64,000 nucleotides of DNA. Origin: Sphingomonadales bacterium (GTDB lineage Bacteria; Bacteroidota; Bacteroidia; Chitinophagales; Chitinophagaceae). The DNA is taken from assembly GCA_016872155.1 (NCBI GenBank), contig VHBB01000003.1:124001-188000 (forward strand). The letters run 5' to 3'. Each line of letters starts with the position of its first letter. Positions within the stretch are counted from its first letter, which is position 1. Under the pieces are notes generated by a model that saw nothing but the letters and a program-made list of their open reading frames with translations, did not search any database and was not told where the DNA came from. The position numbers were made by a program, and so were the translations under genes. Below are positions 52,704 through 53,480 of the stretch, in pieces.

Positions 52704-53429
52704 ATGACCTTTCTTTTGGACATCACTCAGATTAATCCGGGTGATTACAGAGCGTTTACGTTTTTCATTGGCTGTATGGCCATGATGGCTGCCTCTGTAT
52801 TCTTCTTCTTTGAGGTCGGTAACACCGAAAAAGCATGGAAAACTTCTGTGCTGGTTTCCGGACTCATCACCTTCATTGCAGCCGTGCATTATTATTACAT
52901 GCGCGACTACACCATTGCAACCGGACAGTCTCCTACCTTCTTCCGTTATGTAGACTGGTTGCTGACTGTACCCCTGATGTGTGTAGAGTTTTACCTGATT
53001 ACCAAAAAAGCAGGAGCCAAAATTGGCTTGCTGTGGAATCTGATCCTAGCTTCTGTAGTGATGCTGGTGACCGGATATTGGGGTGAGGTAGCTGCAGGCG
53101 CTGACAACAACAATGCTACCCTTTGGGGTACCGTTAGTGCCATCGCTTATTTCTACATTGTCTATCTGGTATGGATGGGTGATGTAAAGAAATTAGCCGC
53201 CAGCGCCGGACCTGCCGTTGCCAAAGCCAACTCTCTGTTGGGATGGTTCGTATTGGTAGGTTGGGCCATTTACCCTGTTGGATACCTTGCCGGTACTGCT
53301 GCTGGTCAGTGGTATGCTGGTTTCGCCAACCTGGGTCTCGACATGGACATCATCTATAACATTGGTGATGCCGTAAACAAGATCGGTTTCGGTCTGGTTA
53401 TTTATAACCTCAGCCGCTCTTCTAACTAA
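52704..53429 (+). CDS. Light-driven proton-pumping rhodopsin, xanthorhodopsin-like
   Basis: A 241-aa type-I microbial rhodopsin with seven helices. Helix C reads RYVDWLLTVPLMCVEFYL: R81, proton acceptor D84, T88 and donor E95, i.e. the D-T-E signature of outward proton pumps. M92 occupies the colour-tuning position (Leu/Gln105 of proteorhodopsin), usually green-absorbing. H62 in VHYYYMRD is the conserved histidine partner of D84. Helix G has D222 and the retinal Schiff-base lysine K226 (codon 53379-53381). Helix E has G142 in LWGTVSAIAYFY, aligned by me to xanthorhodopsin G156, which opens a carotenoid-antenna window. blh follows and should supply retinal. Confidence 0.95.
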   Translation: MTFLLDITQINPGDYRAFTFFIGCMAMMAASVFFFFEVGNTEKAWKTSVLVSGLITFIAAVHYYYMRDYTIATGQSPTFFRYVDWLLTVPLMCVEFYLITKKAGAKIGLLWNLILASVVMLVTGYWGEVAAGADNNNATLWGTVSAIAYFYIVYLVWMGDVKKLAASAGPAVAKANSLLGWFVLVGWAIYPVGYLAGTAAGQWYAGFANLGLDMDIIYNIGDAVNKIGFGLVIYNLSRSSN

Positions 53430-53442
53430 TTTCGACTCTTTC

Positions 53443-53480
53443 AAAAGGGGGCTGTTTATTGATAGGCAGCCCCCTTTTTT
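53443..53480 (+). terminator. Intrinsic terminator between rhodopsin and blh
   Basis: A 12-bp perfect stem AAAAGGGGGCTG (53443-53454) / CAGCCCCCTTTT (53467-53478) with a 12-base loop and a T-run. It begins 14 bases after the rhodopsin stop and ends just before the blh ATG at 53487, so blh must be read through it or start from a promoter not recognised. Confidence 0.88.

Follow-up and report, generated by a model that had tools for sequence, protein, structure and literature searches.

A stretch of 64,000 nucleotides from a Chitinophagaceae genome (contig VHBB01000003.1; hereafter the window) encodes a predicted proteorhodopsin-type proton pump; blh follows on the same strand after a gap of 57 bases, which contains a strong terminator-like hairpin (Table 1). 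The rhodopsin matches Pfam PF01036 with 141.2 bits (cut-off, 24.6), blh matches TIGR03753 with 132.8 bits (cut-off, 95.25), and no other microbial rhodopsin was found in the genome (G000; 1,787,557 bases in 35 contigs, 98% completeness). A 99%-identical rhodopsin is encoded by the metagenome-assembled genome "Chitinophagaceae bacterium isolate UBA10502" (L119). A sequence-only reading of the window had proposed that a helix E glycine, Gly142, opens this pump to a hydroxylated carotenoid made by the same cell. We found that the protein has, in addition to the glycine, the helix F tyrosine and threonine of a zeaxanthin-bound relative, and we consider it quite probable that it is an outward proton-pumping Chitinophagaceae proteorhodopsin that binds a 3-hydroxylated carotenoid of the same cell, for blue-light capture, a faster photocycle, or both.

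Table 1. Positions of the genes, codons, and hairpin discussed in the text (window positions unless another sequence is named)
Feature	Position	Strand	Basis
Proteorhodopsin-type proton pump (predicted), 241 aa	52704..53429	+	Intact open reading frame, ATG start, Pfam
Asp84 codon, proton acceptor in DTE triad D84/T88/E95	52953..52955	+	Alignment with xanthorhodopsin (XR) D96/T100/E107
Gly142 codon, equivalent of XR Gly156, Kin4B8 Gly153, and Gloeobacter rhodopsin (GR) Gly178	53127..53129	+	Alignments
Tyr194 codon, equivalent of XR Tyr207 and Kin4B8 Tyr204	53283..53285	+	Alignments; role from PMC12308411 (available portion)
Thr198 and Ala199 codons; Thr198 at the Kin4B8 Ser208 site anchoring the 3-hydroxy ring	53295..53300	+	Alignment; PMC12308411, Table 2 (available portion)
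Lys226 codon, retinal Schiff base lysine	53379..53381	+	Aligned with Lys240 of L109
Terminator-like hairpin, rhodopsin-blh gap	53443..53478	+	16 pairs and T run
blh, beta-carotene 15,15'-dioxygenase (retinal synthesis), 301 aa	53487..54392	+	TIGR03753, PF15461
CrtZ-like gene, 171 aa	L006, 13054-13569		Found by reading the crtB contig

Proteorhodopsin family and putative carotenoid pocket

Translation of the open reading frame bears out every residue named in the sequence-only reading (His62, Asp84, Thr88, Met92, Glu95, Gly142, Tyr151, Asp222, and Lys226), including the nine-residue spacing from Gly142 to Tyr151. The DTE triad, its partner His62, and the retinal lysine are all present and align with those of known pumps, supporting the predicted outward proton-pump type, and Met92 is at what we take to be the colour-tuning position. 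For comparison we used 394 genomes of the family, 37 of them with a rhodopsin above the PF01036 cut-off, and 395 genomes of the phylum, 61 of them with a match (67 further sequences fetched, 66 read); the phylum rhodopsin L054 was left out because the family hidden Markov model did not recover it, and matches below the cut-off (in G173 and G296, and the second ones in G289 and G647) were not counted. These rhodopsins were grouped by motif as proteorhodopsin-like (PR-like; DTE with Met at the 92 site), XR-like (DTE with Leu), sodium pumps (NDQ), and nine others. A further set of relatives (L119-L198) comprises the best 80 of 576 from a genome-contig collection. Judged by sequence, the protein belongs with the proteorhodopsins, in their Bacteroidota branch; it is 51 to 80% identical to the PR-like sequences. 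An identity as a xanthorhodopsin was rejected, since it is 26 to 31% identical to the XR-like sequences, has Ala188 after the helix F tryptophan where all 19 of them have glycine, and finds its best solved matches in NM-R1 and in proteorhodopsins.

Gly142 had been placed by hand at the site of XR Gly156, where green proteorhodopsin has a bulky phenylalanine, and two alignments agree with this placing. When 103 rhodopsins are aligned with MAFFT, it pairs with residue 156 of L109, which stands in for xanthorhodopsin and aligns with PDB 3DDL in HMMER without gaps over residues 1 to 273. In a second alignment, with solved chains, it is Gly142 and not a bulky residue that pairs with the XR, Kin4B8, and GR glycines of Table 1; 9jov has glycine there too (printed position 142), and green proteorhodopsin has Phe (printed position 153 of 8CQC). 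In an AlphaFold2 model, Gly142 lies within helix 135-157, a block with a mean predicted local distance difference test score (pLDDT) of 87.

According to the available portion of PMC12308411, the rule for carotenoid binding is, first, Gly at the XR156 site and, second, a helix F Tyr (XR207, Kin4B8 204), while polar residues at Kin4B8 208 and 209 accompany 3-hydroxy carotenoids and XR and GR are hydrophobic there. The same portion reports that S208A lowers zeaxanthin binding by Kin4B8 to 2% of wild type and that Y209F still binds zeaxanthin, with reduced energy transfer; thus, a polar residue at 209, present in three of the rhodopsins tested, is not required for binding and does not define the group. 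For the glycine site itself, the part of PMC9151804 available to us states that GR G178W abolishes binding and that the site is Phe in green and Trp in blue proteorhodopsin. Aligned with the solved chains, the pocket here consists of Gly142, Tyr194, Leu195, Thr198, and Ala199, so that three of the four published marks are present: the glycine, the tyrosine, and a polar residue in Thr198. The corresponding helix F residues are Tyr-Met-Thr-Pro in 9jov and, from the table of PMC12308411, Tyr-Met-Thr-Asp in KR1 and Tyr-Ile-Thr-Glu in EinA29G6.

The closest solved relative is the proteorhodopsin NM-R1 (PDB 9jou, titled a zeaxanthin-bound proton pump), with 63% identity and a shared fold. It has the same pocket Gly, Tyr, and Thr in the alignment of 9jov, which we took as NM-R1 because its letters are identical to those of 9jou where printed, and it differs from the present protein in Pro for Ala199, Met for Leu195, Gly for Ala146, and a shorter D-E loop. 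NM-R1 is presumably from Nonlabens, and a limited literature search found no paper on 9JOV/9JOU or on NM-R1 with zeaxanthin. Chazan et al., Nature 2023, reportedly described KR1 and EinA29G6 as lutein/zeaxanthin-binding proteorhodopsins. Like the protein studied here, KR1 (Dokdonia) and EinA29G6 belong to the proteorhodopsin family and have a helix F Tyr and Thr, but in the published table through which they were compared the 209 site holds Asp or Glu, not Ala (PMC12308411, available portion). Kin4B8 (PDB 8I2Z, a xanthorhodopsin with zeaxanthin) matches Gly142, Tyr194, and Thr198 with Gly153, Tyr204, and Ser208, but is of the XR family, 25% identical, and has Gly198 for Ala188. Salinibacter xanthorhodopsin (PDB 3DDL) shares the glycine, the tyrosine, and the pump residues, but has Met211 and Ala212 in the pocket and a 4-keto carotenoid; its near-identical relative L109 is 28% identical to our protein. 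Green proteorhodopsin (PDB 7b03/8CQC), of the proteorhodopsin family and 44% identical, shares the pump residues but has Phe at the glycine site and Leu at the Met92 site.

Carotenoid genes and their distribution

The genome carries a carotenoid cluster on contig C22: crtI, crtB, and idi come first, then a CrtZ-like gene and last, running off the contig end, the first part of crtY. A C-terminal CrtY part opens contig C31, where the next gene is on the opposite strand. The CrtZ name rests on identity to Pantoea plasmid proteins (37 to 39% over 95% of the length, among 15 plasmid matches listed of 109, all Pantoea), on gene position, with the Pantoea plasmid match running up to the phytoene synthase gene, and on histidine clusters that we take to be the CrtZ motif. 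A genome search with PF04116 missed this gene because its product has no Pfam or NCBIfam match at 0.001, and PF04116 was rejected as a CrtZ finder, its three genome matches reading as other enzymes. Of the two genes that the sequence-only reading would seek in the genome, crtZ thus has a candidate in the crtB cluster and crtW has none: no ketolase was recognised among the three PF04116 and two PF00487 proteins, none of which passes an NCBIfam cut-off and which, partly from recall, we take to be other enzymes, and CrtO-type ketolases were not searched for. Lycopene cyclases of the PF18916 type had no match in the genome.

Across the family genomes, CrtZ (E threshold, 1e-6) matches in 277 of 394 and crtB (1e-40) in 280, with 273 having both when the overlap of the listings is counted by eye. 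CrtZ is found in 34 of the 37 rhodopsin genomes versus 243 of the 357 others (Fisher p 0.002). Within crtB genomes, however, the two groups do not differ (34/35 with rhodopsin, 239/245 without; p 1.0), and CrtZ was rejected as special evidence for an antenna. CrtZ tracks carotenoid synthesis rather than rhodopsin, nearly every carotenoid maker of the family has it, and it points to an antenna only weakly. Outside the family, CrtZ matches were obtained in 24 of the 59 rhodopsin genomes of the phylum sample. One same-genus genome, G254 (L030), has rhodopsin and blh and no crtB or CrtZ match, for which an assembly gap is the likeliest reason, the other being dependence on outside carotenoid. No relative was found in the phage collection at 1e-5.

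Pro, Glu, or Ser replaces Thr198, with Gly142 kept, in 13 of 58 PR-like sequences (L008, L019, L021, L056, L059, L060, L067, L068, L069, L075, L080, L089, and L091). CrtZ accompanies 44 of 46 Thr198 pockets versus 7 of 13 Pro/Glu/Ser pockets (p 0.0008). We treat this association as no more than a lead, since the sequences are related, the non-Thr pockets fall in few lineages, and hydroxylases remote from the Chitinophagaceae CrtZ used as query may have gone undetected. It is conceivable, though we give it little credence, that a 3-hydroxy carotenoid is a fixed pump cofactor in Chitinophagaceae and some further Bacteroidota families, that the non-Thr lineages use another pigment or none, and that pocket and pigment change together.

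The intergenic hairpin in relatives

A hairpin with a T run within 140 nucleotides past the rhodopsin stop is seen in 65 of 79 relatives (from the best 80 of 576); it is absent from all 79 when the sequences are mononucleotide-shuffled once, and occurs in 5 of 79 within the gene and in 1 upstream of the gene. Among the relatives having a same-strand downstream blh, 52 of 61 have it. A hairpin between rhodopsin and blh may serve to hold Blh at a low level while opsin stays abundant.

Zeaxanthin as the probable partner, and alternatives

Family, residues, and gene neighbours are observed directly at the locus, and the pathway genes are assigned by homology. From these we infer that Blh, encoded beside the rhodopsin, would cleave beta-carotene to retinal, while a 3-hydroxylated carotenoid from the same cell, most likely zeaxanthin, would lie against helices E and F. 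By analogy with zeaxanthin-bound NM-R1 and Kin4B8, its ring A would sit in the Gly142 gap, held by Tyr194 and Thr198, and the bound carotenoid would bring more blue-light capture, a faster photocycle, or both. Carotenoid binding is likely, zeaxanthin is the likeliest partner, and an antenna role, with energy transfer to retinal, is plausible; antenna and photocycle speed-up are not separable from sequence. The earlier proposal is borne out in part: the pump type and the open glycine site are supported, as is a hydroxylated carotenoid pathway in the same cell, with its CrtZ-like gene, and the closest solved relative is zeaxanthin-bound, but the glycine by itself is weak evidence.

Several observations weigh against zeaxanthin binding in this protein. 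Ala199 leaves the 209 site without a polar residue, as Pro equally does in 9jov. The stretch with Tyr194 and Thr198 has a mean pLDDT of 56, so the model is no test of their placing. At E values up to 10, well beyond the 0.001 at which no Pfam or NCBIfam model matches, the CrtZ-like protein finds only unrelated Pfam families. CrtI scores 718.5 against the cut-off of 640 set for CrtID, a model of bifunctional phytoene/3,4-desaturases, and the pathway may therefore end in something other than plain zeaxanthin. Finally, the glycine is the rule in the clade, and hence no demonstration of binding here. It occurs in all 37 family-sample rhodopsins, the query included, and in all 80 of the best relatives, and therefore is not there by chance but also does not set this protein apart. 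Besides the query, it is found in 58/58 PR-like, 19/19 XR-like, and 16/16 NDQ sodium-pump sequences of the family and phylum samples, and in 2 of 9 outside these groups; a 2026 paper likewise has it in its Bacteroidota proteorhodopsins. Because Bacteroidota pumps, those for sodium among them, usually have glycine here, the residue is weak evidence alone. Moreover, in the available portion of PMC10026069, KR2 has the glycine with no binding reported, carotenoid binding by a sodium pump with Thr216 required replacement of this residue by Gly, and the flavobacterial sodium pump DDR2 binds salinixanthin although no efficient energy transfer could be detected. The behaviour of KR2 and DDR2 indicates that glycine is not enough.

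Among the alternatives, the strongest, which we regard as possible though hardly favoured, is that zeaxanthin is bound but serves chiefly to stabilise the protein or to speed up the photocycle, with minor energy transfer to retinal. Fujiwara et al. 2025, to go by a title in reference lists, reportedly deals with photocycle acceleration, which hints at a rival or added role; 9jou presumably comes from that work. DDR2 offers a precedent for binding of this kind, but KR1, a flavobacterial proteorhodopsin, acts like Kin4B8 with the tested carotenoids bar canthaxanthin, and its bound astaxanthin participates in energy transfer (PMC12308411, available portion). We consider it unlikely that the pump naturally pairs with a different carotenoid, such as a 3,4-didehydro or monocyclic xanthophyll, or with one acquired from other cells: the CrtI score would fit this, but CrtY and the CrtZ-like gene are present, with the gene after the CrtY part on C31 being on the other strand. 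Least probable is that the glycine is merely inherited in Bacteroidota pumps and the protein works with retinal alone, as its universality and the loss of the CrtZ-rhodopsin link once crtB is counted would allow, but helix F Tyr and Thr match the zeaxanthin-bound relative as well, and genes for a hydroxylated carotenoid are present in the cell.

The glycine alone says little, since no proton-pump-like or sodium-pump sequence examined here lacks it. Surveys that take it for a sign of an antenna may therefore count too many, unless the helix F pocket and a measurement support the call. The pump is of a common Bacteroidota type, for which a solved close relative with zeaxanthin is already known, and it brings a pump from a small-genome Chitinophagaceae bacterium into the group of rhodopsins for which a hydroxylated carotenoid partner is expected.
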